From positions 1 to 29,614 of the IMG/VR virus record IMGVR_UViG_3300046524_000603: a DNA stretch of 29,614 nt; one strand, given 5' to 3'. Position numbers and translations under genes: made by a program. Shown piece after piece: positions 1-29,614 of this stretch. The stretch's first letter is position 1. Every line of letters begins with the position of its first letter. The stretch is from a virus. A model generated the notes under the pieces. It saw only the letters and a program-made list of their open reading frames with translations. It was not told the DNA's origin and did no database searches.

Positions 1-1206
1 CTAGAGGGGTACGGTTTCTGTCTGTACCAATTTTGTACCAATCAGGCTTTGCTCCAGCTTCCCGACTTCACTCCAATCTTCACTGGAGTTGATCCACCGG
101 GCGTAGGTCGACAGTAGCATTTGCACGCTGTGGCCGAGCTGATTCGCAATGAACCCGAGGTTCATGCCTGCCATTAGGCACATGGTAGCGTATGTGTGCC
201 GGCAGTTGTATTGCCGTCTGGCCCTGATCTTCAAAGCCACAAGTGCCGCCTTGAAGTGTTTGTCGGTCACGCTCGCCTGCTGGATGAACTCGAAGTTCTT
301 GGTCGGCGGGAACACATACGGCGACTGTTTGTGTTGTCTCCGGCTTTGCTTCGCCCTCAACTCGGCCACGCCTTTGGCCACCTCAATCGCATTCAATGCC
401 CTGCTGTTCAGCATGACGCGCCGTGCCTCACGGGTTTTCGTGCGCTCCTCGATCTTGTAGTCCGCCACGATTCTGCACACGTTGGCGACACGCCCCTCTG
501 TGTCCACCTCATCCCAGCGCAACGCCGCTATCTCACCTGGCCGCATGCCAGTGTAAAACGCGAACTCGAAGTAGGCCGCGTACACCCGCATCGAACTTGT
601 CAGCACCTTATATAGGTGCCCAATGATCAAATCCGCTTCGACTACCGTGAATGGATCCACCGGTTTCTTTGCCTTCACCGGCAATTCAATCGAGCCGACT
701 GGGTTTCGCGTGATCAGCTCATCATTCACTGCGCTTTCAAACATCGTGTGCAGGCGCTGGATCGCCGAACGCTTTACGGTCGACGATTTCCACTGCGTCT
801 CGCTGACAATTTTTCGGATAACTGCCGAACTGACCTGGTCGATCGGGAGCAATGCCAGGTGCGGCATCCAATAAAGGTTGAGGGATATCCGGTAGTTTTT
901 CCGGGTGCCGCCAACGACTTCGCGGCTGTCGAGCCAAGTTTGCGCATAACCCCCGAACAGGGGCGTGGCGGAATAAGTGGAATAGGTGGAGTTCGGGAAA
1001 AGCTCGGCGTAACGCTGGTCATCCATCACGCCATGCTTGATCAGGCTGGTTACTGTAGCGCGAAGATCTGCGGCTGCCTTGATGCCTTTTGGCGTTTGGG
1101 GATAGGGGAGGGTCTCGCAGCGGCGGAACTTCCAGGTGAAGCGAATCCGGACTGACTGACCCGCGAATTCAACTCCTGCGGGCAATCCCAAAGGCTTTCT
1201 AGCCAT
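1..1206 (-). CDS. int: Phage integrase, tyrosine recombinase
   Basis: Site-specific recombinase expected to insert and excise the prophage by cutting and rejoining attachment sites. The 401-residue protein has an N-terminal arm-binding region (about 1-75, similar to the DUF3596 type), a core-binding helical domain (about 80-175) and a C-terminal catalytic domain. Catalytic residues visible: R222 in TGMRPGEIAALRW, K257, R336 in the CRHTYAT motif, H359 in LGHS and Y368 in STYARW. Y333 stands where the first His of HxxR usually is, which I believe occurs in this subfamily. The TAG stop is the first three bases of the window, so the protein is complete but any attachment site lies outside. The start is next to a weak ribosome site inside the excisionase-like gene, whose last 157 bases overlap it. 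Family call is firm; the site specificity cannot be read. Confidence 0.96.
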   Translation of the reverse strand: MARKPLGLPAGVEFAGQSVRIRFTWKFRRCETLPYPQTPKGIKAAADLRATVTSLIKHGVMDDQRYAELFPNSTYSTYSATPLFGGYAQTWLDSREVVGGTRKNYRISLNLYWMPHLALLPIDQVSSAVIRKIVSETQWKSSTVKRSAIQRLHTMFESAVNDELITRNPVGSIELPVKAKKPVDPFTVVEADLIIGHLYKVLTSSMRVYAAYFEFAFYTGMRPGEIAALRWDEVDTEGRVANVCRIVADYKIEERTKTREARRVMLNSRALNAIEVAKGVAELRAKQSRRQHKQSPYVFPPTKNFEFIQQASVTDKHFKAALVALKIRARRQYNCRHTYATMCLMAGMNLGFIANQLGHSVQMLLSTYARWINSSEDWSEVGKLEQSLIGTKLVQTETVPL

Positions 1207-2880: not shown

Positions 2881-3302
2881 GGCTTCACCTCGCGGCGTGC
2901 CCACTGCACATACGGGCCATCATCGGTATCGAAGATCCCGATTAGGAACCATTCAGGCCCTGGTGATTCGGGATTCCAGGCGGTGCACGCGGCATCCTCT
3001 TCAGGAAGGTCATAGGTCTCGTCTCCCGAGTGCCAGCCTTTCACCTCTAACCCTTGTTCTGCTACCCAGGCCCTGTACGGCGCTGGATCTTCTCCGCCAT
3101 CGAACTCCGGGATGCCCGGGTGCCACCACCAGCCGTCCTTGTCGCGCTTCACTTCGACGGGGCCAAAGGACTTCGGACTGTGGTTCGGGCAAGGCATCAC
3201 GTAAAGCACGTCGGAGTACTCTCCACCACCAGAGCTGAATTTCATCTGGCAGCCGCACTCGGCCGGCTCGCCATTCACGAGCGTTATCTTTTCTTCAGGC
3301 AT
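2877..3302 (-). CDS. Hypothetical phage protein, Trp/acid-rich
   Basis: A 141-residue soluble protein starting MPEEKITLVNGEPAECGC. It is rich in Trp, Gly, Asp and Glu, for example GWWWHPGIPEFDGGEDPAPY and later WNPESPGPEWFLIGIFD, which gives it a domain-like look. Cysteines at about 16, 18 and 38 with a following His (MPCPNH) could bind a metal, but the set is not a known finger. AAGGA lies 7 bases before the ATG, and the stop overlaps the next gene by 4 bases. I recognise it only as a type of hypothetical protein found in Pseudomonas prophages. Confidence 0.8.
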   Translation of the reverse strand: MPEEKITLVNGEPAECGCQMKFSSGGGEYSDVLYVMPCPNHSPKSFGPVEVKRDKDGWWWHPGIPEFDGGEDPAPYRAWVAEQGLEVKGWHSGDETYDLPEEDAACTAWNPESPGPEWFLIGIFDTDDGPYVQWARREVKP

Positions 3303-4019: not shown

Positions 4020-5825
4020 TCAGGCCGCGAGGCGCTGGTAGAGCGCAATGATATCGGCGGCGTTGGCGCTGACCAGTGCTTCAGCCTCATCCGGGCAGAC
4101 GCTGTTGCCGATCAGCCGGACCTGATCCGTTTTGTTGATGTCGCGCCATTCTTCGGCACCGGTGACCGGGTCGACGAACAGCCCGCGGTCGATGATGTAG
4201 TCCTTGTCGAAGCCTTGTGCTGCCTTCAGCTCTGGCGGTTGAAGCATGCGCAGCGTGATGTCCACCAGCACATAGCCGCCGACCATGACCAGGTCGGCCG
4301 GGTCTTTGAAGTGTTCCGGCAGATGTTCGTGCATGAAGGCGGCACAGCGGCGGGCGCCTTCCAATTGCTCCGGAGTCAAGGAGTCCGGCACCTGCACAAC
4401 CTCAACCAGCGCAACCCGGTCCTTCGTCGGCAGGGTGTGCATCGGCTCGGTGAGCGAAATGCCGTCCTTCTCGTTGCCGTAGTACTTCACCAGGTAGGCG
4501 TTCACCAATCGCTGATTGGCGCCGGACTGGCAGATGGTCGATAGCGGAGAATCGGCGGCGCGGCCGTCACCGTCGTAGAACCCGCCGTTTGCCTGCTCGA
4601 AGAACGCAGCCGATACCGCGTGATGTCCGGTACTGGTGGCGACTACGCCGAGCGGGCCGGCGACGTTGGCGCCGATTGAGCCCTTTCGCAATGTCACCAT
4701 GTTCGCCGCGGCCATTGCGAAGTGGCCACCCTTCACTTGTGCCACCTGAGTGCGCAACGGCTCCTGCACATCGAAGTTGCGCTGCGATGAGCCGTTGGCG
4801 CACTCGGTGAGAAATGGCGCTGCCACTGGCTGCACCAGCGCGTGATGTGTGCCGCCGGCGCTGATGGTCGACAGTGCCTCGTCGACGCCGTGGGTGCTGG
4901 TGTGTGCGTTAGAGGTGCCGCGCATCGGGACAATGAACGGCTTCGCACTGGTCAGCACATGCCGCCAGCAACCCTTGGCCACGCGGCGCATGGTGTTCAC
5001 TGCCATAGGCTTGTCACGAAAGATCGTGCGGCCGAGATTGCTCCAGTCGATGCATTCCGCGGCAGTGCGCCACGGTTTCTGCTTCGCCGTGGGGGCTTTA
5101 TGGCGTTTAGGCACCGGCCAGACAATCGGCTTTCCATCGCTGCGGGCCACCAGGTACAGGCGCTTGCGAATCGTCGGGGTGCCGGCGTTGGCCGCGATGC
5201 GCTCGCGCCATTCGACGTTGTAGCCGAGCCCGCGCACCAAAGCTTCCGTCGGCACGAACTCGCCGATTGATTCGAGGATCTCTGGCATGTCGGGGTGATC
5301 GGCTGCTAGGCCGGTGCTGAGTGCGGCAATGAATGACTTGAAGGTGCGCCCGCGATCGGCCTTGATTGGCTGGCCTTCCTCATCGATCGGCCCCCAGTCG
5401 CAGAACTCTTCGACGTTCTCTAGGAACATCAGGCGCGGCCGGGTTGCGTGGGCCCAGCGCACAACAACCCATGCCAGGCCTCGAACTCCGCGATCACGCG
5501 GCGCACCGCCCTTGGCCTTGCTGTGGTGCCGGCAGTCCGGCGAGGCCCAGAGAATGCCGACTGGTTGGCCGCCGGTGGCGTGTACTGGGTCGACCTCGAA
5601 CACATCAGCGACGTAGTGCGCTGTCTGCGGGTGGTTGGCGCGGTGCACGGCCAGCGCGATCGGATTGTGGTTTACCGCTACGTCCGGCTCCCGGTATGCC
5701 CGGGCAATCCCGGTGCTTGCACCGCCGCCGCCGGCGAACAGGTCCACCACCAGCTCTTTCTGAAATGGCAGGCCCATGCTTGGCTGGCCGTGGGTGAACT
5801 GGGGTTTCTTCTGTTGTGCGGACAT
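4020..5825 (-). CDS. DNA (cytosine-5) methyltransferase
   Basis: Transfers a methyl group from S-adenosylmethionine to cytosine C5 in phage DNA, probably to protect it from host restriction. Motif I is DLFAGGGGAS (28-37); the catalytic motif reads WASPDCRHHSKAKGG with C98, a variant of the usual PPCQ; ENV of motif VI is at 136-138; motif VIII resembles TPTIRKRLYLVA; motif X is near the end (GNSVCP, about 573-578). The 601 residues exceed a typical enzyme of about 400 because the target-recognition region holds several loose repeats of the form PLxTI...HALV. No restriction partner is nearby, so it looks like an orphan. GAGG lies 8 bases before the ATG. A GC-rich hairpin without a T-run (3984-3998) follows the stop. 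Confidence 0.93.
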   Translation of the reverse strand: MSAQQKKPQFTHGQPSMGLPFQKELVVDLFAGGGGASTGIARAYREPDVAVNHNPIALAVHRANHPQTAHYVADVFEVDPVHATGGQPVGILWASPDCRHHSKAKGGAPRDRGVRGLAWVVVRWAHATRPRLMFLENVEEFCDWGPIDEEGQPIKADRGRTFKSFIAALSTGLAADHPDMPEILESIGEFVPTEALVRGLGYNVEWRERIAANAGTPTIRKRLYLVARSDGKPIVWPVPKRHKAPTAKQKPWRTAAECIDWSNLGRTIFRDKPMAVNTMRRVAKGCWRHVLTSAKPFIVPMRGTSNAHTSTHGVDEALSTISAGGTHHALVQPVAAPFLTECANGSSQRNFDVQEPLRTQVAQVKGGHFAMAAANMVTLRKGSIGANVAGPLGVVATSTGHHAVSAAFFEQANGGFYDGDGRAADSPLSTICQSGANQRLVNAYLVKYYGNEKDGISLTEPMHTLPTKDRVALVEVVQVPDSLTPEQLEGARRCAAFMHEHLPEHFKDPADLVMVGGYVLVDITLRMLQPPELKAAQGFDKDYIIDRGLFVDPVTGAEEWRDINKTDQVRLIGNSVCPDEAEALVSANAADIIALYQRLAA

Positions 5826-9981: not shown

Positions 9982-10188
9982 CTACTGAACTGCTCGCAGT
10001 TCACTACGAAGCACCCAGCTGCCGGAGACTTTCACCATGCAGCCAACGAAGGCGGCGTACTTGGTTTCTCTGTCGGTCTGGTAGCCGTAGTAGGAGCAGG
10101 CGCCCCGATTGGCGAGGCTGTTTAGGAGCACCCCCAGGGCGAAGGTCGCCCCGGAGATGATCAGCACTTTGCGCAGCCGCGTGCTCAC
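9982..10188 (-). CDS. Small membrane or exported protein
   Basis: A 68-residue protein that starts with a basic stretch (MSTRLRKV) and a hydrophobic segment (about 7-25, VLIISGATFALGVLLNSLA), followed by NRGACSYYGYQTDRETKYAA. The layout is a signal anchor or an uncleaved signal sequence with the C-terminal part outside; the Cys near residue 31 is not a clear lipobox. The start codon is GTG and overlaps the TGA of the TerB-like gene (GTGA), with only a weak ribosome site, so it relies on coupling. I recall similar small proteins in other Pseudomonas prophages. Confidence 0.78.
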   Translation of the reverse strand: MSTRLRKVLIISGATFALGVLLNSLANRGACSYYGYQTDRETKYAAFVGCMVKVSGSWVLRSELRAVQ

Positions 10189-10622
10189 GCGTCGATACCG
10201 AAGTCTTTGAGGCGCAGGCCAAGTTCATTGCCGATCTCGGCGAGAACCTTGAGCTCTTCGGCGCTGATGTTGCCGTCGCCTTCCGCAACGGTGAGCATGT
10301 TCACGAACACCTCTTCCGCATCGGCCGGGTTGTTTTTGATGTCGCGGATCTCGCGCAGGATGTTCATGCGACCGAGGCGGAAGCCAGCCTGCAACTGCTC
10401 GGTGAACAGGTTGACCGTGCTGGTGATCTCGGAGCCGAAGTGTTCCAGCGCCTTGTTGGCCCGGATCTGGATATCGATCTGAGCCGCTTCGTTCTTGCTG
10501 ATCTCGCCGTCCGACGCCGCCACCAGCAGGCAGCCACCGACGATGGCTTGCATCAGGTCGCGATTTTCCAGCTTCTTGACTGCGCGCTTGGCGCCGAACA
10601 ACTTCTTACCGATACCGAACAT
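10185..10622 (-). CDS. TerB-like protein
   Basis: A 145-residue helical protein of the TerB (tellurite resistance/DjlA-like) family. It shows two acidic helix-loop-helix segments, D38-GEISKNE and D116-GNISAEE, that look like the metal-linked loops of TerB domains. TerB proteins are linked with membrane-associated stress and phage-response functions, but the role of single phage copies is unknown. The start MFGIGKKLFG (10622) is chosen because GAGG lies 8-9 bases upstream; the frame itself runs further. It lies between csrA and the 68-residue membrane protein, with GTGA coupling to the latter. Confidence 0.85.
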   Translation of the reverse strand: MFGIGKKLFGAKRAVKKLENRDLMQAIVGGCLLVAASDGEISKNEAAQIDIQIRANKALEHFGSEITSTVNLFTEQLQAGFRLGRMNILREIRDIKNNPADAEEVFVNMLTVAEGDGNISAEELKVLAEIGNELGLRLKDFGIDA

Positions 10623-10645
10623 GGGTGAATCCTCTGGGTTGGGTT

Positions 10646-10686
10646 GCATCCCGCTGCACCCTGTCGCCAAGGTGCAGCAGTGATGC
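10646..10686 (-). ncRNA. Structured RNA element B (two-stem hairpin)
   Basis: Outer stem GCATC/GATGC (10646-10650, 10682-10686) and inner stem CTGCACC/GGTGCAG (10654-10660, 10671-10677). The terminal loop CTGTCGCCAA (plus strand; TTGGCGACAG in the transcript) is identical to that of element C while the stems differ by compensating changes. It lies between the csrA stop and the TerB-like start. Confidence 0.7.
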
Positions 10687-10693
10687 TTTTCGA

Positions 10694-10867
10694 TCAGGCC
10701 TTGGCTTCGTCCTGAATACGCTGGTAGATCTCTTGACGATGCACGGCAACCTCTTTCGGCGCCTCAACTGCGAGCTTTACTTGCTGCCCGCTAACGCTCA
10801 GCACCGTGATACTGATGTCGTCATTGATTCGGATGGTTTCGCCTGGCTTACGGGTAAGTATCAACAT
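10694..10867 (-). CDS. csrA: CsrA/RsmA-family translational regulator
   Basis: Small homodimeric RNA-binding protein that binds GGA motifs in hairpin loops or leaders and blocks or changes translation. The 57-residue protein has the family opening [14 protein letters not shown], five predicted strands and the key R44 in [10 protein letters not shown]. Length matches the family. The start at 10867 is clear from the conserved N-terminus; GGGAG and AGGA lie upstream, and these GGA motifs are possible self-binding sites. It is the first gene of the leftward transcript, after a leader of about 340 bases. A phage copy could retune host Rsm-controlled traits or control the early operon. Confidence 0.93.
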
Positions 10868-10884
10868 GGTCCTGCTCCCTGGTT

Positions 10885-10927
10885 GATTTCCCGTCTGGCC
10901 CTGTCGCCAAGGCCAGCTAGTGAAATC
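10885..10927 (-). ncRNA. Structured RNA element C (two-stem hairpin)
   Basis: Outer stem GATTTC/GAAATC (10885-10890, 10922-10927) and inner stem CTGGCC/GGCCAG (10895-10900, 10911-10916), loop CTGTCGCCAA as in element B. It ends 17 bases before the csrA start codon, close to the ribosome site, so it could affect csrA translation. Confidence 0.7.
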
Positions 10928-11127
10928 TGTTGTCCGCCCCATGCTCGGCGCCTCGGTTTCCCCACCTGGCCGGCGTCACACATTTCGTGCTCGGTGTTCT
11001 TCGCTGGCTGGCTTGCATGGTTTGGCGTTCTCCCTTGTAGGGAGTCCGGCCAGTTCCAGAGCTGGCATGGAGATCGAAATTTGTGTTTCGCGCTGTACCC
11101 GTTGCCGGGGATCGATCCGCGAAGATT

Positions 11128-11711: not shown

Positions 11712-11960
11712 ATGTCCAAGCAAGAAAAGCTGCTCGCGAAGCTGCTGAACAAGCAAGCAGGATTCACTTGGCCGGAGTTGGTTACGCTGCTGGGCGGGCT
11801 TGGATACCATCAGATCGAGGGCGACGGCAGCCGAGTGAAGTTCGACAACGGCAACCCGCAGGCGATGATCAACCTGCACAAGCCGCACCCCGGTAATGAG
11901 CTGAAGATCTACGTTAAACGCCAGGTAATAGAACACCTGAAAGCAGGAGGATTGATCTGA
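11712..11960 (+). CDS. hicA: HicA-family toxin
   Basis: Small RNA-cleaving toxin with a dsRBD-like fold that attacks mRNA when free of HicB. The 82-residue protein shows the family plan: helix (WPELVTLLGGLGYHQI), the beta turn EGDGSRVKF, then NLHKPHPGNELKIYVKRQVI and a last helix. In classical HicA the turn is GSH with a catalytic His; here it is G-S40-R41, and H56 or H59 in the next strand may serve instead, as I recall in a HicA subgroup. The TGA shares its A with the ATG of hicB. GGAG-like sites are weak before this gene. It is driven by the palindrome-controlled promoter. Confidence 0.9.
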   Translation: MSKQEKLLAKLLNKQAGFTWPELVTLLGGLGYHQIEGDGSRVKFDNGNPQAMINLHKPHPGNELKIYVKRQVIEHLKAGGLI

Positions 11961-12301
11961 TGAGCACCATGTTGCAGCACCGGGGCTACTACGGCTCCAT
12001 CGAGGCTAGCCCTGAGGACAATTGTCTGTTCGGCAAGCTTCAGTTCATTCGCGCCTTGGTCAGCTATGAAGGCGAGACGGTGGCCGAGCTGACCCAGGCG
12101 TTCCGCGATGCCGTGGACGACTACCTCGACACTTGTGCATCACTTGGGCAGGAGCCAGAGATTCCGTGCAAGGGGTCATTCAACGTGAGGGTGGGGCATG
12201 ACCTGCATCTTGCCGCCAGCGTGGCAGCTAACCAGCAAAGCATTTCCTTGAACGATCTGACTCGTAAGGCGCTGAGCGAGTATCTGGGACAGCACGTGTA
12301 A
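11960..12301 (+). CDS. hicB: HicB-family antitoxin
   Basis: Antitoxin that binds and blocks HicA and represses the operon. The 113-residue protein has an N-terminal HicB-like domain (YYGSIEASPEDNCLFGKLQF, then VSYEGETVAELTQAFRDAVD) and a C-terminal helical segment (ISLNDLTRKALSEYL) typical of ribbon-helix-helix DNA binding. Toxin-first order and a one-base overlap (TGATG) are normal for this family. GGAGG lies about 9 bases before the ATG. Both halves appear intact, so the system is likely functional and would stabilise the prophage or act against other phages. Confidence 0.92.
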   Translation: MSTMLQHRGYYGSIEASPEDNCLFGKLQFIRALVSYEGETVAELTQAFRDAVDDYLDTCASLGQEPEIPCKGSFNVRVGHDLHLAASVAANQQSISLNDLTRKALSEYLGQHV

Positions 12302-12664: not shown

Positions 12665-12688
12665 AAAAGCCCGGCGCTGGGCCGGGCT
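12665..12688 (-). terminator. Intrinsic terminator after the VapC45-like gene
   Basis: AGCCCGGC (12668-12675) pairs with GCCGGGCT (12681-12688), loop of 5, followed leftward by TTTT. It overlaps the stop codon of the PIN-like gene. Confidence 0.78.
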
Positions 12689-13094
12689 ATATTTTGATTT
12701 GCTCAAATCTTCCAGGGTGCAGGAATTTCCAATTGACCTTGAAAGCAGCGCCACCCTTGATCAACTCCGCCTGGCTCATAATGGCTGGCCACCACCTAAC
12801 CAGATTTTGGGCTTTGCTCCAATACGGATCAGTTGACCACTGCTTTGCTAAGCAGAAAATTGGCAGGCCACATTCACGGAACACTCGCCTCTCTGCATCG
12901 CCTTTGGAAAATCTGTCTTGAGAGATAACTGCCCATCCTCCCTCCGCCTTAAGCTCTAGAATCCAATCGACGTCCCTAGTATCCGGGGGGAATCGATCTT
13001 TTAGCGCCAATACAGAATGCCCTTCAGGCTTTGACAATTCGTTGAGGGCGCGAGCGAGAGATGGTGGAAGATTGTTATCTATCAAAAATTTCAA
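12687..13094 (-). CDS. VapC45-like toxin, PIN-like domain
   Basis: Probable ribonuclease toxin. The 135-residue protein opens MKFLIDNNLPPSLARALNEL, with D6 and N7/N8 in the acidic position of PIN-like domains; next come D-rich segments (RFPPDTRDVDWILEL) and VISQDRFSKGDAERRVF with further acidic residues, the pattern of the VapC45/DUF5615 type. The last third (AELIKGGAAFKVNWKFLHPG) is basic. The ATG overlaps the antitoxin stop by ATGA, so the pair is translated together, antitoxin first. A terminator follows. Assignment rests on motif resemblance and on its partner. Confidence 0.82.
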   Translation of the reverse strand: MKFLIDNNLPPSLARALNELSKPEGHSVLALKDRFPPDTRDVDWILELKAEGGWAVISQDRFSKGDAERRVFRECGLPIFCLAKQWSTDPYWSKAQNLVRWWPAIMSQAELIKGGAAFKVNWKFLHPGRFEQIKI

Positions 13095-13783
13095 GCAGCG
13101 ATTCCATGCTCGTAGGTGACTGCCGCATCCACTGCAGCAGGAGGGATTTCGAAAAGCATAGCGACACGTTTTATGCTCTGGCCCTCAGCTTGGTAAGCCT
13201 GATAAATCGCCGAGGTGTCTACGCCGGTCTTCGCAAGCAATGGCTTGCCGAAGTTGCGAGCAGGGTCCAGCACGACTTCCTTGCTACGCTTGAGCGGATA
13301 CCACCGCTCAGCGCCGCCGCTTCCGGTGTAGTCAATCCCTTCATAAAGGGATGGCTTGATCACCTGCTTGAAAGCATATTGCCGCCTGACCAAATCCAGG
13401 AGCGCTTCGTCACCAGTTTCATCTAGGACTGTCGCAAAAATATCTCGCCCATCCGTCTGGAAGCGCTTACACGTGAAAGGATATTTTTGGTTAAAAAGTT
13501 CCATGGCTTGTTTGGAAGCACTACGGATGGCCTGAAGGCTAACGCCGTGCTGCCGAAAGGCATGTACAAACCGAATTTCGAGAAGGTCGTGAAACCCCAG
13601 CAAGCTCTCTTCGAGGAAGGATAGCTCTGGCTTCCAGAGGCCGGGGTGCGCCACTCCGTGAGCTTTGTACCCAAACATCCAGCGGCGTATATCCTTAGCC
13701 GGGATACCGGTGTACAGGCTTGCCTCGGCTGCAGTGTAAATGCCCACCCCGATGAGGCGGCTTGGCGAATCAATACTTTTCAT
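13091..13783 (-). CDS. VapB45-like antitoxin (HTH plus DUF433)
   Basis: Likely DNA-binding antitoxin of the PIN-like toxin. The 230-residue protein begins with a MerR-like helix-turn-helix (IYTAAEASLYTGIPAKDIRR then WMFGY, about 15-37) and ends with a DUF433 domain (TSAIYQAYQAEGQSIKRVAM then LFEIPPAAVDAAVTYE, about 188-225). The middle contains LLEIRFVHAFRQHGVSLQAI, typical of the long VapB45 form. A strong GGAGGGG site precedes the ATG. The 154 bases upstream (13784-13937) hold its leader and no gene; I see no clear promoter there. Confidence 0.82.
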   Translation of the reverse strand: MKSIDSPSRLIGVGIYTAAEASLYTGIPAKDIRRWMFGYKAHGVAHPGLWKPELSFLEESLLGFHDLLEIRFVHAFRQHGVSLQAIRSASKQAMELFNQKYPFTCKRFQTDGRDIFATVLDETGDEALLDLVRRQYAFKQVIKPSLYEGIDYTGSGGAERWYPLKRSKEVVLDPARNFGKPLLAKTGVDTSAIYQAYQAEGQSIKRVAMLFEIPPAAVDAAVTYEHGIAA

Positions 13784-19707: not shown

Positions 19708-20135
19708 CGCCCGCCAAACCCAGGCTGTTCAAGCAGAAAACCGTCCGCTCCAAGCCTGTCGACCGGGAAGGGCAGGAGCAGGCCGCACTGATGCGTGAGC
19801 TCGAGTTGCGCTATCCGGCAGTGTTCGAGTTGATGTACCACGTTCCCAACGGCGGGCACCGCGTCAAGGCGGTCGCCGGCAAGTTGAAAGCCCAGGGTGT
19901 GAAGGCCGGTATTCCCGACCTGGTGCTGACCATGGCGCGCGGCGGGTTCTTTGGCTTGTACATCGAATTCAAGGCCACACCGCCGAATGATGCCCCTATC
20001 TCAGCCAGTCAGCATGCGCGTATACGCAAGCTCAATGAGCAGGGGTATTTGGCGGTGGTGTGCCGTGGTCACTTCGACACCATCGAACAGATCCGAGCTT
20101 ACCTGCGGCTCGCTCCCACAGTGGTGGCCGCATGA
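19704..20135 (+). CDS. VRR-NUC domain nuclease
   Basis: PD-(D/E)XK nuclease of the VRR-NUC type, which in phages is thought to cut branched DNA during replication or recombination. The 143-residue protein has REGQEQAALMRELE at the start (E/Q helix), HVPNGGHR, GI-P71-D72-LVL, and YI-E88-F-K90 with Q103 in SASQHARI, the full set of expected active-site positions. Length fits stand-alone phage members. Its ATG and stop overlap neighbours by 4 bases each, so it is tightly joined to the replication operon, where a RusA-like resolvase often sits. Confidence 0.9.
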   Translation: MTPAKPRLFKQKTVRSKPVDREGQEQAALMRELELRYPAVFELMYHVPNGGHRVKAVAGKLKAQGVKAGIPDLVLTMARGGFFGLYIEFKATPPNDAPISASQHARIRKLNEQGYLAVVCRGHFDTIEQIRAYLRLAPTVVAA

Positions 20136-21418
20136 CAATGACCGTGGCCTTCTCCGATGCCGAGATTCGTCGGCGTGCCGATGACCCGGCCGCGGTGCTG
20201 ATGCGTGATCCTCGTCACCCGGGGCTGTATTTCCGATTCACCGAGGCGCGGCCGCGCGGAACTTGGAGTCTGGTGGTGCGCAAGAAGTGGAACCGGATTG
20301 GCGCCTATCCGGATCTGTCGGCGAAGGCAGTGCTGGCCGCATTGCCTGACCTTCGCATGCGCCTGAACACCGACCCGGAAGCAGGTGCCGCTGTTTCGCC
20401 GTGGGCAACACTGGGTGAGCTGTTGAGCTGGTACGCCGACCGCATGAGTCGCGACCGCAACCTCTCCGACAAGCGCAAAGCCACGGGTAAGTCAGCCATC
20501 GCCTGCCACCTGATTCCGCGTGTGGGCGATCTGGCGCTTGCCGATGTGCGCCACGGTACCCTTGACACCCAGCTGATGTGGCCACTTCAGGAGACGCTGT
20601 CGCTGGAGTTTGTCCGGCTGATCTTCGGCCTGCTGGTGGTCGCCTGCCGTCAGGCGCACACCCTGGGTTTGATCCCGACCAACCCGATGACAGGCATCAA
20701 GTTCAGCGACTTCTCCAAGACCAAGATCAAGGCCAAGCCGGCGCGCCTTCGGGGTGTGCAGATCGAGGGGTTGCTGGGCCAGCTGCATGAGCTGTTCGAG
20801 TTCGACCCACAACCGGCCATGCTCGCGCTGATGATGCTTTGCCATGGCACCCGGATCGGCGAAACCCGCAAAGCTCAGTGGTCACACATCAGCCTCGCCG
20901 AGCGCACCTGGTACCTGCCGGTGGGCAACACCAAGACCCGCGTCGAACACTCGCTCCCACTGACCGATCAAGTCTGCACCCTTCTAATCCGGTACCGCGC
21001 AGCGCAACAAGCGAGCCATTACGACGGCGATTGCCTGTTTCGCTCCCACAGTGGAAAGGGCATGAGCGAAGGGCAGGCCAGTGCCGTGTTCACCGGGCTG
21101 GGGAAGGGCGAGTGGAGCAGTCATGACCTGCGCAAGTTGGCCAGGACGGGGTGGGCGGACCTCGGTATCGACTTCCTGATCGGCGAGATGCTGATCAACC
21201 ACGCCATGGGCCACAACGTGCAGGCCTACATCCACACCACCGTGGAAGAGCGCAAACGTGCTGCCCTCGAACTGTGGCACGGCCATTTAGACGCCAAGGG
21301 TTTTTCCCTGATTCACGGGTTGAAGGACGGTAGAAACGAAAATTCGGGTAATTCGCTGGAAGCCACAGAAAACAAGGGCTGCAAGGCCTTTCAAGAATCA
21401 ACCATAGGCGAGGTTTAA
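20132..21418 (+). CDS. Second tyrosine recombinase
   Basis: A 428-residue site-specific recombinase of the phage integrase family, distinct from the one at the left end. Catalytic residues: R241 in CHGTRIGETRKAQW, K268 in NTKTR, H331 and R334 in SHDLRKLARTGW, H357 in INHAMGH, and Y367 in QAYIHT. The N-terminal part (WSLVVRKKWNRIGAYPDLS) resembles the arm-binding domain of P4-like integrases. It starts by ATGA overlap with the nuclease gene, so it is made with replication proteins and not with the excision genes. It may resolve multimers or act on a replication intermediate; its target site is unknown. Confidence 0.92.
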   Translation: MTMTVAFSDAEIRRRADDPAAVLMRDPRHPGLYFRFTEARPRGTWSLVVRKKWNRIGAYPDLSAKAVLAALPDLRMRLNTDPEAGAAVSPWATLGELLSWYADRMSRDRNLSDKRKATGKSAIACHLIPRVGDLALADVRHGTLDTQLMWPLQETLSLEFVRLIFGLLVVACRQAHTLGLIPTNPMTGIKFSDFSKTKIKAKPARLRGVQIEGLLGQLHELFEFDPQPAMLALMMLCHGTRIGETRKAQWSHISLAERTWYLPVGNTKTRVEHSLPLTDQVCTLLIRYRAAQQASHYDGDCLFRSHSGKGMSEGQASAVFTGLGKGEWSSHDLRKLARTGWADLGIDFLIGEMLINHAMGHNVQAYIHTTVEERKRAALELWHGHLDAKGFSLIHGLKDGRNENSGNSLEATENKGCKAFQESTIGEV

Positions 21419-24031: not shown

Positions 24032-25720
24032 GTGAACGAACCCACCTGGGACACAGCGTGCCCGGACTGGGAGTGGCGAATCATCAACCGACAATCTCTG
24101 GTTCCGTTTCCGCCGCTGTTTCCGGATGAGGCAGCCGCATGCATGCAGGTCCTGAATGACTTGCGGATTGTCGATGCACCGGGTAGCCCGTTGATTGGCG
24201 ATTCCTGTGCTCCGTGGATAAGTGACCTGGCCGGCGCCATTTTTGGGGCGTACAACTCCAACACTGGTGAGCGGCTGATCCAGGAGTTCTTTCTCCTCAT
24301 CAGTAAAAAGAACGCAAAGAGCACCATCGCTGCCGCGATCATGCTCACGGTGCTGATCCGGAACTGGCGCCAGTCAGCGGAGTTCATCATCTTGGCGCCG
24401 ACGATCGAGGTGGCGAACAACGCCTACGCGCCGGCCCGCGACATGGTCAAACACGACGAAGAGCTTTCGGCGCTGCTGCATGTGCAGGATCACGTTCGGA
24501 CGATCACCCATCGTGAGTCCGGGGCGACATTGAAGGTGGTGGCCGCCGATCAAAACACTGTCGGCGGGAAAAAAGCCGCCGTCGTCCTGGTCGATGAGCT
24601 TCACCTGTTTGGCAAGAACCCACATGCGGCCAACATGCTGCGCGAAGCCACCGGTGGACTTGCGTCTCGGCCCGAAGGGTTCGTGATCTATCTCACGACG
24701 CAGTCTGACCAGCCCCCGGCGGGAGTGTTTCGCGAAAAGCTTCAGTACGCCCGGGGGGTGCGTGACGGCACGATTGTCGATCCGAACTTCCTGCCGGTGA
24801 TCTACGAGTTTCCGAAAAAGATCCTTGAGGCTGATGATCACCGCAAGTCGGAGAATTTCTACATCACCAACCCGAACATGGGGTACTCGGTTAGCGAGAA
24901 ATTCCTCATCCGGGAAATGAAAAAGGCGGAGGAGGCCGGTGAGGCTGAGGTGCTGGGCTTTATGTCCAAGCACCTTAACGTCGAGATCGGACTCGCGTTG
25001 CGCTCAGACCGGTGGGCAGGCGCTGATTACTGGGTCGGCGCAGCAGAAAAGAAGCTCACCCTCGATGATGTGATCGCCCGATGCGACGTGATCGACATCG
25101 GGATCGATGGCGGTGGTCTGGACGACTTACTGGGTTTTGCCGCCGTGGGCCGGGACAAACGAACCCGTGACTGGTTGATATGGACCCACGCCTGGGCGCA
25201 CCCCTCGGTACTCGAGCGAAGAAAGGCAGAAGCCCCTCGCTTCCATGACTTTGAAAAAGACGGCGATCTGACACTGTCGAAGCGAATCGGCGATGACGTG
25301 CTTGAGGTGGCTGACCTGGTTGAACAGGTGGAAGAGTCGGGCCTGCTGGACAAAGTCGGCGTCGACCCGGTCGGGATTGGCGCGATTTACGACGCAATGA
25401 TCGAGCGCGAAATCCCCCCGGAAAAGATTGTCGCCATCAGCCAGGGCTGGAAGCTCGGCGGCGCGATCAAGACGGCAGAGCGCAAGCTCGCCGAAGGCGG
25501 GATGAAGCACGGCGGACAACCCATGATGGCCTGGTGCGTCAGCAATGCGAAGGTTGAGCCACGCGCGAACTCCATCCTGATCACCAAGCAAGCCAGTGGC
25601 TCGGCCAAGATCGATCCCTTGATGGCTCTTTTCAACGCGGTGACCTTGATTTCTCTGAATCCCGAAGGCCGGGGCAACGATGACTTCATGGCAGCCATTC
25701 GGAATCCGATCATCGTATGA
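24032..25720 (+). CDS. terL: Terminase large subunit
   Basis: ATP-driven motor and nuclease that packages phage DNA into the prohead. The 562-residue protein has a Walker A-like SKKNAKST (91-98), Walker B VVLVDE (184-189), coupling region ATGGLASRPEGFVIYLTTQS, and a C-terminal RNase H-like nuclease with acidic residues in IDIGIDGGGLDDLLGF and GVDPVGIG. Length and order match HK97-type TerL (Terminase_1). The start is GTG immediately after the small-subunit stop, with a weak ribosome site, implying coupling. Its stop overlaps the next small gene by ATGA. Confidence 0.95.
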   Translation: MNEPTWDTACPDWEWRIINRQSLVPFPPLFPDEAAACMQVLNDLRIVDAPGSPLIGDSCAPWISDLAGAIFGAYNSNTGERLIQEFFLLISKKNAKSTIAAAIMLTVLIRNWRQSAEFIILAPTIEVANNAYAPARDMVKHDEELSALLHVQDHVRTITHRESGATLKVVAADQNTVGGKKAAVVLVDELHLFGKNPHAANMLREATGGLASRPEGFVIYLTTQSDQPPAGVFREKLQYARGVRDGTIVDPNFLPVIYEFPKKILEADDHRKSENFYITNPNMGYSVSEKFLIREMKKAEEAGEAEVLGFMSKHLNVEIGLALRSDRWAGADYWVGAAEKKLTLDDVIARCDVIDIGIDGGGLDDLLGFAAVGRDKRTRDWLIWTHAWAHPSVLERRKAEAPRFHDFEKDGDLTLSKRIGDDVLEVADLVEQVEESGLLDKVGVDPVGIGAIYDAMIEREIPPEKIVAISQGWKLGGAIKTAERKLAEGGMKHGGQPMMAWCVSNAKVEPRANSILITKQASGSAKIDPLMALFNAVTLISLNPEGRGNDDFMAAIRNPIIV

Positions 25721-25878
25721 ACCCATTACACGTTTTCATTTTGACTGCCCTAAGCGGGTTCGGACTAGCCGTTGCTGGCGTCTACATGCTGCTCGACCTG
25801 GGTTGGTCATTGCTGGCCGGCGCCGGCGCTCTGTTTCTTATCGCGGGCTTTGTGCGCAAGGGGCTGACAGGTGACTAA
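25717..25878 (+). CDS. Small two-TM membrane protein between TerL and portal
   Basis: A 53-residue protein, MNPLHVFILTALSGFGLAVA then GVYMLLDLGWSLLAGAGALF and LIAGFVRKGLTGD, with two hydrophobic helices separated by a short Asp-containing turn and a basic end. Its ATG overlaps the TerL stop (ATGA) and its end overlaps the portal start. Small membrane proteins at this position are common in HK97-type Pseudomonas phages. Role unknown; prohead-membrane contact or lysis help are possible. Confidence 0.78.
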   Translation: MNPLHVFILTALSGFGLAVAGVYMLLDLGWSLLAGAGALFLIAGFVRKGLTGD

Positions 25879-27172
25879 ATCCTTATCGGTCGTCATCGGG
25901 CGCGCCGCCCGCAAGCCCAGCGCTTCTTTGGGGGAGTGGTTCGGACAGTCGATCAAGTTGAGCGACGGCGGTTTCTGGGGGCAGTTCCTTGGGGTGCAGT
26001 CGAGCTCCGGTAAAACGGTCACCGTCGATAACGCCATGCAATTGTCAGCGGTCTGGTCGTGCGTGCGGATCATCTCTACCTCGGTGGCTGGACTTCCACT
26101 TGGGGTCTACCGCCGCGAGGTGGACGGCGGCAGAAGTGACGCGCGCGACTTTCCGATTTACGACGTCATCCACACCAGCCCCAACGAGGACATGACTGCC
26201 TTTCAGTTCTGGCAAGCGATGGTTGCTGCCATGTTGCTGCGCGGCAATGCCTTCGCAGAGATCATGCGGATTGGCGGACGAATCATCGCGCTTGATTTTC
26301 TGCTGCCGTCCCGGGTTGACCTTGAGGTCGATAGCGATGGCCGGGTTGAGTACTGGTACCGACCGAAAAAAGGCGCGCGACGAAAGATCGAGCGCCAAAA
26401 CATGCTGCACATTCCGGCCTTCAGCCTGGATGGCCGGGTTGGGCTGTCGGCCATTCGCTATGGCGCGGACGTGTTTGGCGCAGCGATGTCCGCGGACGAT
26501 GCCGCCAATGGGACTTTTAAGAATGGTCTGTTGCCAGCGGTGGCTTTCAAGGTCGACCGGGTACTGAAGCCCGAACAGCGCGAAGAATTCCGTGACTATG
26601 TGAAGCAGGTGTCGGGCGCACTCAACGCTGGTCGTTCGCCGGTGCTCGAGCAGGGCATCACGCCAGAGTCGATCGGCATCAATCCGGTCGATGCTCAGTT
26701 GTTGGAGTCCCGGGCCTACAGCATTGAGGAGGTCTGCCGCTGGTTTGGTGTGCCCCCTTGGATGGTCGGCAAGACGGACGCCGGTAGCAATTGGGGAACG
26801 GGCCTTGAACAACAGATGATCGCATTCCTCACATTTAGCATCAGTTCGATCACCAACCAGATACAGCAGTGCGTGAACAAGCGCTTGTTGACGGCCGTTG
26901 AGCGCCGAACCTATTACGCCGAGTTCGCCCTTGAAGCCTTTCTCAAAGCCGATAGCGCCGCACGGGCTGCGCTTTACAGCACGATGGTGCAGAACGGCAT
27001 CTACACCCGGGACGACTGCCGGGTTAAAGAGAACCTGCCCCGCATGGGCGGGAACGCCGCGGTGCTCACCGTACAGACCAACCTCACCCCGATTGATCAG
27101 TTGGGGAAAACAACCGACGGGCAAGCCGCACAGGCTGCTTTGAAAAACTGGCTTGGCCAGAACCAGGAGTAA
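25871..27172 (+). CDS. Portal protein, HK97 family
   Basis: Forms the 12-subunit ring at one capsid vertex through which DNA enters and leaves. The 433-residue protein shows family segments SAVWSCVRIISTSVAGLPLG, FQFWQAMVAAMLLRGNAFAE, QLLESRAYSIEEVCRWFGVP with PWMVG, and a helical C-terminus (ADSAARAALYSTMVQNGIYT). The GTG start overlaps the previous gene by 8 bases. Order TerL-portal-protease-capsid is the HK97 plan. Confidence 0.95.
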   Translation: MTKSLSVVIGRAARKPSASLGEWFGQSIKLSDGGFWGQFLGVQSSSGKTVTVDNAMQLSAVWSCVRIISTSVAGLPLGVYRREVDGGRSDARDFPIYDVIHTSPNEDMTAFQFWQAMVAAMLLRGNAFAEIMRIGGRIIALDFLLPSRVDLEVDSDGRVEYWYRPKKGARRKIERQNMLHIPAFSLDGRVGLSAIRYGADVFGAAMSADDAANGTFKNGLLPAVAFKVDRVLKPEQREEFRDYVKQVSGALNAGRSPVLEQGITPESIGINPVDAQLLESRAYSIEEVCRWFGVPPWMVGKTDAGSNWGTGLEQQMIAFLTFSISSITNQIQQCVNKRLLTAVERRTYYAEFALEAFLKADSAARAALYSTMVQNGIYTRDDCRVKENLPRMGGNAAVLTVQTNLTPIDQLGKTTDGQAAQAALKNWLGQNQE

Positions 27173-27174
27173 CC

Positions 27175-28038
27175 ATGGCGCTGAATATCAAAGCCAGCGG
27201 CTTTCGCTGCGAGCTGAGCCCTCGTGCGCTCGAAATGTGGAATCCGGATATCCGGGCAGCCACGGAAACCGGGACCGACACCATCACCATGTACGGGATC
27301 ATTGGCGAGGATTGGTGGGGAGAGGGCGTCACAGTGAAGCGAGTGGATGCAGCGTTGCGAGCCATCGGCGACAAGCCCGTCGACGTGTACATCAATTCGC
27401 CAGGCGGCGACATGTTTGAAGGCATCGCGATTTACAACCGGCTGCGCGAGCATTCCCAGCAGGTCACGACAAAGGTACTGGGCTTGGCTGCCTCGGCGGC
27501 ATCCGTCATCGCCATGGCCGGTGAAAAGCGCGAGGTGGCCAAAACTGCGTTTTTGATGATCCACAACTGCTGGACCTACTTTGCCGGGAATCGACACGCG
27601 ATACGTGAGCTGGCCGATACCATGGAGGAATTCGACCGCGCCATGATCGGCCTTTATGCCGACACCAGCGGTCAAGATGAGAAGACGGTCGAATCAATGC
27701 TGGATGCGGAGACCTACATGGGTGGGGCTACTGCCATGGAGAAGGGCTTCGCCACCGGGCTCATTTCCGCCGATGAGGTCAAGGAGGCCGCCGAGCAGGA
27801 ACACAGCCAGGCGCATGCCGCACGCCGCTTGGACGCCGCCCTCGCCAAGTCCGGAATGCCCCGGACCGAAAGACGCAAACTGCTTTCCGAAATCAAGACC
27901 GGTACGCCTAGCGCTGCCGGTGGCGACAAGCCTAGCGCTGTCGTGCCGGGTACGCTCCGCGCTGCCCTTGATATATCCGCGTTTGAAGAAACCGCAACCC
28001 AGGCGTCAGCGTTACGGGGTCTCATCCCTGTTCGCTAA
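27175..28038 (+). CDS. Prohead maturation protease, ClpP-like
   Basis: Serine protease of the S14/ClpP fold that cuts the capsid delta domain during maturation. The 287-residue protein has VDVYINSPGGDMFEGIAIYN, nucleophile S107 in GLAASAASVIAMAG and H130 in FLMIHNC, with the acidic residue probably in the ETYMGGATAMEKG region. The C-terminal tail (from about 210) is Ala/Lys-rich and may be removed on activation. AGGAG lies 5 bases before the ATG. A terminator-like hairpin separates it from the capsid gene. Confidence 0.93.
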   Translation: MALNIKASGFRCELSPRALEMWNPDIRAATETGTDTITMYGIIGEDWWGEGVTVKRVDAALRAIGDKPVDVYINSPGGDMFEGIAIYNRLREHSQQVTTKVLGLAASAASVIAMAGEKREVAKTAFLMIHNCWTYFAGNRHAIRELADTMEEFDRAMIGLYADTSGQDEKTVESMLDAETYMGGATAMEKGFATGLISADEVKEAAEQEHSQAHAARRLDAALAKSGMPRTERRKLLSEIKTGTPSAAGGDKPSAVVPGTLRAALDISAFEETATQASALRGLIPVR

Positions 28039-28064
28039 ACGACTGTCTCAGCAGTCCGATTACT

Positions 28065-28087
28065 AACCGCCCGTGTGGCGGTTTTTT
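28065..28087 (+). terminator. Intrinsic terminator between protease and capsid genes
   Basis: AACCGCC/GGCGGTT (28065-28071, 28077-28083), loop of 5, then further T. It lies 21 bases before the capsid ATG. Late antitermination would override it; otherwise it would lower capsid mRNA. Confidence 0.8.
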
Positions 28088-28107
28088 CATTTCTGAAGGA
28101 ACACAAA

Positions 28108-29304
28108 ATGCCAGTCGATCTTTCCCAAATCGAAGCATCCCAGAAACAAACCCAGGCCGACCTGAAAGCCGTCGGTGATCAAATCAAGACCTACGCCGAG
28201 CGCACCGAGAAGGAAATCAAAGCCTCCGGTGAGATGCAGGCGGAAACCCGCGGCAAGGTTGACGAGCTGCTGCTCAAGCAAGGTGAGCTCCAGGCTCGCA
28301 TGCAGGATGCCGAGCAGAAGTTGGTCAATGCTGGCAATCAGCATGATCCTGAAGTTCAGCAATCGGCCGGTCAGTTGGTGTCGGCCAAGATGCAGGAGGA
28401 GGGGGTCAGCAGCTCGTTCCGTGGTTCTCGCCGGGTCGAGGTTCCGCGGGCTGCGCTTACCTCAGCGCCTGCATCGGGTGGCGCACTGGTACCGGCGGAG
28501 CGCGTCGGTGTCATTCTTGCTCCTCAGCGCCGATTGACCATCCGCGATCTGGTCGCCCCTGGTACCACGGGTTCCAACGCTGTCGAGTACGTGCGCGAGA
28601 CTGGTTTCACCAACAACGCAGCGATTGTCGGCGAGGGGTTGGCCAAGCCTTACAGCGAACTGACTTTCGGCCTGGAAAACGCGAACGTTCGAACGATCGC
28701 GCACCTGTTCAAAGGTAGCCGTCAGATTCTCGATGACGCCGCCGCCCTGCAAAGCTACATCGATGCTCGCGCGCGTTACGGTCTGCTGCTGGCAGAAGAA
28801 GCCCAACTGCTCTATGGCAACGGCACTGGCAACAACCTGCACGGGATCATTCCGCAGGCCCAGGCATATGTAACGCCAGCCGGTATCACCGTTGCAGCGG
28901 AGCAACGCATTGATCGCATTCGTATGGCGCTGCTCCAGGCAACGCTTGCTGAGTTCCCATCTACCGGCATCGTGCTCAACCCGATTGACTGGGCCGCGAT
29001 CGAGCTGCTCAAGGACGGCGAGAACCGCTACATCATTGGCAAGCCGCAAGAAGGCACTTCGCCGCGACTGTGGAATCTGCCTGTGGTTGAAACGCAGGCC
29101 ATTGTCCAGAACCAGTTCCTGACAGGCGCGTTTAGCCTGGCTGCGCAGATTTTCGACCGCATGGGCATCGAAGTGTTGATCTCGACAGAGAACGATAAAG
29201 ACTTCGAAAACAACATGGTCACCATCCGCGCTGAGGAACGTTTGGCGTTCGCAGTGTATCGACCTGAAGCGTTCGTGACCGGTCCTCTGGTTGCTGCTCC
29301 TTAA
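28108..29304 (+). CDS. Major capsid protein, HK97 family
   Basis: Main shell protein of the head. The 398-residue precursor has a charged coiled-coil N-terminal delta domain (about 1-105) that acts as scaffold and is removed by the protease, probably near residues 107-115 (GSRRVEVPRAALTS). The mature part has HK97-fold marks: SGGALVPAERVGVILAPQRR, TIRDLVAPGTTGSNAVEYVR, KPYSELTFGLENANVRTIAH, and the C-terminal MVTIRAEERLAFAVYRPEAF. The start at 28108 is set by AAGGA 8 bases upstream. Confidence 0.96.
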   Translation: MPVDLSQIEASQKQTQADLKAVGDQIKTYAERTEKEIKASGEMQAETRGKVDELLLKQGELQARMQDAEQKLVNAGNQHDPEVQQSAGQLVSAKMQEEGVSSSFRGSRRVEVPRAALTSAPASGGALVPAERVGVILAPQRRLTIRDLVAPGTTGSNAVEYVRETGFTNNAAIVGEGLAKPYSELTFGLENANVRTIAHLFKGSRQILDDAAALQSYIDARARYGLLLAEEAQLLYGNGTGNNLHGIIPQAQAYVTPAGITVAAEQRIDRIRMALLQATLAEFPSTGIVLNPIDWAAIELLKDGENRYIIGKPQEGTSPRLWNLPVVETQAIVQNQFLTGAFSLAAQIFDRMGIEVLISTENDKDFENNMVTIRAEERLAFAVYRPEAFVTGPLVAAP

Positions 29305-29312
29305 CTTACTGC

Positions 29313-29344
29313 CGGTTCATGCCTCTCTGGGGAGGCATGAACCG
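29313..29344 (+). other. Strong hairpin after the capsid gene
   Basis: A perfect 13-bp stem, CGGTTCATGCCTC (29313-29325) with GAGGCATGAACCG (29332-29344), loop TCTGGG. It lacks a T-run and sits just before the ribosome site of the next gene. It may protect the capsid mRNA from decay or be a partial terminator. Confidence 0.7.
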
Positions 29345-29358
29345 ATTGGAGAATCGTT

Positions 29359-29614
29359 ATGAGTCGAGCAAAAAGGAATGAGTCAACTACCGTTTTGCCT
29401 CCTGCAACTCAGCAACAAACTGAGTCGGAAAAAACGCTGACTACAGATCAAGACGTTGTTGCCAGCCAGGCGGCGCCCGCCCAGCCTTTCGCTGGTGACG
29501 CTGGTGACGCTGGTGACGCTGGTGACGCTGGTGACGCTGGTGACGCTGGTGACGCTGGTGACGCTGGTGACGCTGGTGACGCTGGTGACGCTGGTGACGC
29601 TGGTGACGCTGGTG
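29359..29614 (+). CDS. Protein with Gly-Asp-Ala repeats (partial)
   Basis: Begins MSRAKRNESTTVLPPATQQQ and continues polar and Gln/Thr-rich to about residue 44, then (Ala-Gly-Asp)n repeats to the end of the window, still open. GGAG lies 7 bases before the ATG. It follows the capsid gene, where a head-tail connector or a decoration protein usually lies. Gly at every third position is a collagen-like pattern, so an extended trimeric fibre or flexible spacer is possible. The C-terminal domain is not in the window. Confidence 0.75.
   Translation, partial: MSRAKRNESTTVLPPATQQQTESEKTLTTDQDVVASQAAPAQPFAGDAGDAGDAGDAGDAGDAGDAGDAGDAGDAGDAGDAGDAG
29491..29614 (+). repeat. 9-bp in-frame tandem repeat (minisatellite)
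   Basis: The unit GCTGGTGAC repeats 13 times without error from 29491 to 29607 and continues into a 14th copy at the window end. The perfect identity points to recent expansion by slippage, and the unit length keeps the frame. The true length is not known because the window ends inside it. Confidence 0.97.

Follow-up and report, generated by a model that had tools for sequence, protein, structure and literature searches.

A pure 9-bp coding minisatellite in the acidic linker of a probable gpFI-like head accessory protein of a D3-type Pseudomonas phage

The window, that is, the whole stretch of DNA analysed here, is a 29,614-base virus record from IMG/VR and represents a Pseudomonas phage of the D3/HK97 type. 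A head module on the forward strand occupies its right end, comprising the genes for the terminase large subunit (24032–25720; PHROG 9, E 2.4e-124), the portal protein (25871–27172; PHROG 12, E 3.1e-123), a head maturation protease of the ClpP type (27175–28038; PHROG 1684, E 1.1e-110) and a major capsid protein of the HK97/D3 type (28108–29304; PHROG 10, E 1.1e-87). The capsid gene is about 76% identical in nucleotides to that of Pseudomonas phage D3, with half of the query covered, and its near relatives are found in Pseudomonas prophages and IMG/VR contigs. Directly after it follows the gene with the repeat array, of which the window contains only the 5′ part (29359–29614, forward strand; ORF list and family alignment), with the N-terminal region and the start of the linker of a putative gpFI-like head accessory protein. 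With these four genes upstream, the sequence-only reading had correctly placed the repeat in a head-region gene.

Several other features of the window deserve mention in their own right. Two genes of the tyrosine integrase family are present, one at the left end (1–1206, reverse strand) and one ahead of the packaging genes (20129–21418, forward strand). The region between them encodes a 601-aa protein resembling C5 cytosine DNA methylases (4020–5825, reverse; PF00145), a TerB-like protein (10185–10670, reverse; PF05099), a phage-borne homologue of the global regulator CsrA/RsmA (10694–10942, reverse; PF02599, E 4.9e-26) and adjacent toxin-antitoxin-like pairs, namely HicA/HicB (11712–12301, forward) and a PIN_10 protein with an HTH/DUF433-like protein (12687–13783, reverse). 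Inside the head operon, a hairpin with a run of T after it (AACCGCCCGTGTGGCGGTTTTTT) lies between the protease and the capsid genes (28039–28090) and resembles an intrinsic terminator.

A strong hairpin (29313–29344, forward strand; −26.7 kcal/mol, z −5.3), a possible attenuator or terminator, separates the capsid stop codon from the array gene. Hairpins of different sequence were found at the same spot in all 11 relatives examined, D3 included, so that the position of the element is kept and its sequence is not; it possibly sets the dosage of the capsid protein versus that of the downstream products. The likely ribosome-binding site, GGAG, was read directly from the sequence at 29348–29351 (forward strand), 8 bases 5′ of the ATG at 29359. 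The frame opened by this ATG reads MSRAKRNESTTVLPPATQQQTESEKTLTTDQDVVASQAAPAQPFAGDAGDAG..., enters the array in phase (...PFAGDAGDAG...) and is still open at the end of the window.

The array is a 9-bp coding minisatellite, (GGTGACGCT)n, which encodes (Gly-Asp-Ala)n and extends from 29490 (start according to TRF; in-frame GCT at 29491) to the last base, 29614, on the forward strand, where it runs off the window. TRF described it as 125 bp with 13.9 copies, 100% matches and no indels, and so the pure Gly-Asp-Ala minisatellite first noticed from the sequence alone was confirmed. Windows simulated with a first-order Markov model (30 in all) contained pure arrays, counted from three copies upwards, of at most 14 bp. 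Moreover, if codons were drawn as they are used in the four head genes, all 13 Gly-Asp-Ala triplets would come out as GGT-GAC-GCT with a probability of about 2e-22. The array is therefore genuine and arose by amplification of DNA; its purity is due to this duplication rather than to a choice made at the protein level. The unit is also rare, since a pattern of four GDA units, in which the third position of two Ala-ending codons was left free, was absent from all 399 Pseudomonas genomes searched. Matches of the window ORF to PHROG tail-fibre profiles were rejected, as the greater part of them fell on the low-complexity array.

An exact search for five array units in IMG/VR returned two contigs. 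One of them, L003, was set aside because its GDA stretch has mixed Ala codons and lies in an unrelated ORF; this unrelated phage contig carries the mixed-codon array at about 3000–3110, within a very Gly-rich reading frame. The other, L004 (13,420 bp), starts inside the same array, of which it holds 136 bp, and then continues with the rest of the gene: at least 15 GDA units are followed by a conserved C-terminal domain of about 45 residues and then by the head-tail connector gene. The closed frame reads (GDA)15-ATSGNQMVIYPVRSYLDGKEIRQAGGAGYVSPKHEALLLIAKGLATDTDPKA*, the part after the array being GDATSGNQMVIYPVRSYLDGKEIRQAGGAGYVSPKHEALLLIAKGLATDTDPKA-stop. Both the tail of the window and the start of L004 have the same contig, L089, as their best match (92.8% and 93.2%, respectively), and L004 is therefore very probably the continuation of the window or a contig of the same phage type, an assignment drawn from sequence in which the overlap consists of repeat only. 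The suspicion that the window end within the repeat marks an assembly break was correct, for L004 begins within the same array and carries the gene on, and its frame closes with a conserved C-terminal domain; the unit count in the window is accordingly a lower bound. The break-prone nature of the array explains why contigs of such phages end at this gene. A correspondence of the break point to the assembler's k-mer length was considered and dropped, since the array is 125 bp long at one contig end and 136 bp at the other. When searched exactly in IMG/VR, the upstream flank yielded no further contig and the downstream flank yielded L004 only. No second isolate of the exact phage was found in these flank searches, and hence no change in GDA copy number was seen.

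On the window together with L004, as well as in the relatives, the array gene lies between the capsid and the head-tail connector genes. Most of the 51 aligned relatives start with M-A/S-R, followed by a low-complexity region whose length varies greatly and then by the conserved domain, in which P, R, D, Y and L residues are invariant across the alignment; the linker varies in both length and sequence. In the members with a C-terminal domain, this region is enriched in Ala, Ser, Gly, Asp, Pro and Thr, nearly devoid of aromatic residues and mostly acidic, with a net charge down to −24. The D3-type members, such as orf6.5 of D3, have the reverse order, with the domain N-terminal and the low-complexity tail last, and no array was present in those seen; because of these relatives, the domain/tail architecture cannot be called fixed, a point against the likeness to gpFI discussed below. 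Several genes downstream in L004 and the relatives, the same head modules encode another short protein, whose C-terminal motif is similar (such as KGEEFTVDAKTGAELVNRGLVR).

The same site of the linker is occupied by quite different arrays among these relatives: (GACGCT)11 in L088, (GATGCT)6–7 plus GACGCT units in L089, about 12 GACGCT units in L090 and L100, about 13 GACGCTGCT units in L007, few Asp-Ala units (two to four or fewer) in L085–L087, and essentially no array in L005 and L006. The number of units thus differs between close relatives at one and the same place. The periods are 6, 9 or 12 bp, built on GACGCT/GATGCT and always in frame, and they recur in several lineages, whereby the common theme is Asp plus Ala and not Gly at every third residue. 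When 105 distinct loci were examined, pure arrays of 36 bp or more numbered five in 39 kb of array gene and zero in 1.16 Mb elsewhere.

In the AlphaFold2 model of the L004 protein, the GDA array had no secondary structure (pLDDT 50–58), and the C-terminal domain was folded with a pLDDT of about 95 into four short strands and a helix. The L088 protein was modelled likewise, with a disordered array and a folded domain, and its N-terminal region was also disordered (pLDDT about 50). A Foldseek search of the PDB with two models placed the C-terminal domain of lambda gpFI, 2LSM, at rank 4 (E 0.94 and 0.63). The Z-scores of 2LSM against the models were 5.0 and 5.6, and GINS and ribosomal L9 domains scored just as high; the fold, which is small and common, thus agrees with gpFI without pointing to it alone. 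The best match in BFVD was the D3-type homologue from phage PP9W2, after which came phage proteins without a name and several DUF7210 proteins.

At the level of sequence, no family protein had an above-cut-off match in Pfam or NCBIfam, and a search of PDB sequences with the family profile gave no match. PF14000 (Packaging_FI) gave no above-cut-off match either, the one obtained, at E 0.14, falling in the linker. Alignment of the window family with gpFI by hhalign reached a probability of 22% over 21 columns, and an HMM of the C-terminal domain reached gpFI at E 0.1–0.6, the best reversed decoy being at 1.0. The sequences thus lend weak support to common descent of the two families, and for this reason the array protein is likened to gpFI in its working and not filed as a member of that family.

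In lambdoid gpFI, the behaviour of such arrays can be seen directly. The FI proteins of N15, phi80, HK225 and mEp237 carry a pure 9-bp in-frame repeat, (GACAGCACC)n, which encodes (Asp-Ser-Thr)n in the acidic linker that precedes the C-terminal domain and ranges in N15-type proteins from (DST)2 to at least (DST)10. Five viral records with identical compared flanks (777 + 810 bp for four of them, 268 + 301 bp for mEp237) had 2, 3, 4, 4 and 5 copies. Moreover, in four complete E. coli genomes the prophages had 2, 3, 4 and 5 copies, while the 714 bp compared outside the array were identical. In comparison, five complete genomes of the strain series 2020S05-013 all showed the same match length at this array, which is thus not wildly unstable. 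In the isolate genome 2703718696, one contig ends and another starts inside the gpFI array, a break of the same type as that between the window and L004. The sequence-only reading had proposed active expansion and contraction, and these observations, together with the differences at the same site among close relatives, support it: copy number is not invariant, either in the relatives' arrays or in the analogous gpFI array, and the frame closes with a C-terminal domain, so that neither outcome which that reading had named as refuting it came about. Our literature searches found no paper on variation in repeat number in the array gene, although this is weak evidence that none exists.

Overall, the array is a length-variable acidic linker, and the explanation we favour, with a probability of about 0.6, is that of a slippage-prone coding minisatellite in the disordered acidic linker of a gpFI-like packaging and head-assembly accessory protein. 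By analogy, the array protein is probably a DNA-packaging helper like lambda FI; this predicted way of working is suggested by the position of the gene, the preceding hairpin, the architecture and, weakly, the sequence and fold of the C-terminal domain, all of which resemble gpFI. The C-terminal domain, encoded on L004 beyond the window fragment, would attach to the procapsid shell, from which the acidic arm would extend as a tether and help the terminase-DNA complex to find the portal. Replication slippage would add or remove whole units, so that the reading frame would be kept and the length of the tether would drift, either neutrally or within a tolerated range.

Whether this length matters is a separate question. 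According to the simplest view, the linker need only be long enough and acidic, and its copy number has no consequence; neutral slippage of this kind has about an even chance of being correct and is compatible with the favoured explanation. The N-terminal arm of the relatives, some of which lack an array, has a length of about 20 to 150 residues, and this wide range argues for tolerance. Against it stands the fact that arrays recur in this gene across several lineages, and also in lambdoid gpFI, albeit mutational bias could give the same recurrence. The opposite view, that a hypermutable in-frame minisatellite was kept independently in D3-like and lambda-like packaging helpers with its copy number as a selected, reversible "length knob", seems quite unlikely to us; if true, the knob would tune packaging or capsid docking. 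The natural gpFI alleles, with two to five copies and no other change in 714 bp, could make the effects of linker length on packaging measurable in laboratory phages.

Apart from a packaging helper, the protein might decorate the head, its domain docking on the mature capsid and its disordered acidic arm being displayed on the virion surface as a brush or an adhesin, but we consider this unlikely. The gene adjoins the capsid gene and combines a small domain with a long flexible arm, and SPP1 gp12, T5 pb10 and T4 Hoc, known decoration proteins which extend from hexamers, are precedents (PMC7602432). However, gpFI, the analogue in position and architecture, is absent from the mass-spectrometry list of lambda virion proteins (PMC10721106), no adhesin domain was seen, and in the D3-type relatives domain and tail come in the opposite order.

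A collagen-like, triple-helical acidic fibre on the virion, as had been imagined from the Gly-Asp-Ala pattern, is very improbable. The at least 15 uninterrupted triplets are suggestive of it, and a capsid binder predicted to be collagen-like is known in SPP1 gp12 (PMC7602432). However, the Gly periodicity is missing in the homologues, which have (DA)n, (DAA)n or no repeat at the same place, so that the linker is kept without it. In characterised prophage collagens, about half of the X positions are Pro, with D/E found in X and K/R in Y (PMC3368898); Pro, Lys and Arg are all absent from the array, which hence has neither the Pro richness nor the paired charges. Structure prediction, which had been proposed as a check, modelled the array as disordered. 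What was supposed to be a collagen fibre becomes instead a testable statement on phage assembly, namely that a protein encoded directly after the capsid protein has a linker whose length differs by whole units from one related phage to another. Finally, that the repeat was made by the assembler is hardly conceivable: the window contig does end within it, but the independent contig L004 begins with the same unit and carries the gene further, relatives have similar arrays far from the ends of their contigs, and the gpFI arrays are present in complete genomes.

Returning to the favoured packaging-helper explanation, lambda offers the closest parallel. The C-terminal domain of lambda gpFI binds the capsid protein, and the N-terminal region of lambda-type gpFI is helical. 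This region is conserved in lambda-type gpFI, as opposed to the window family, where the N-terminal part is variable and, in the L088 homologue, modelled as disordered. In lambda, FI lies directly after the capsid gene (order E-FI-FII), just as the array gene lies between the capsid and the connector genes; FI also follows the capsid gene in N15, phi80, HK225 and mEp237, with an annotated terminator or stem-loop between them in the first three. As in the array protein, a small C-terminal alpha/beta domain of gpFI (PF14000, 2LSM) comes after an acidic linker. Lambda itself has no array in this linker, and the residues repeated in the other gpFI proteins (Asp-Ser-Thr) differ from those in the window (Gly-Asp-Ala). 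The part of the gpFI literature drawn on here (PMC4856287, PMC4493119) includes the proposal that gpFI on the prohead lattice aids the association of the terminase-DNA complex with the prohead (PMC4856287).

Among other known systems, orf6.5 of D3 is a homologue at the same locus. PHROG 26753 and PHROG 7993, both of unknown function, are matched by homologues in the conserved domain, before which the window fragment ends: the C-terminal part of the L004 protein matches them at E 4.1e-6 and 1.4e-8, and the L007 homologue reaches E 1.9e-10. Small phage proteins of the DUF7210 type have a similar predicted domain fold in BFVD, with weak E-values that speak for likeness of fold only, and are short and without a long linker. 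The collagen-like phage proteins, SPP1 gp12 and the EPcl proteins of EHEC prophages, share Gly at each third residue with this one array; in contrast to them, the homologues do not conserve the Gly periodicity, the array is free of Pro and basic residues, and no trimerisation domain was recognised.
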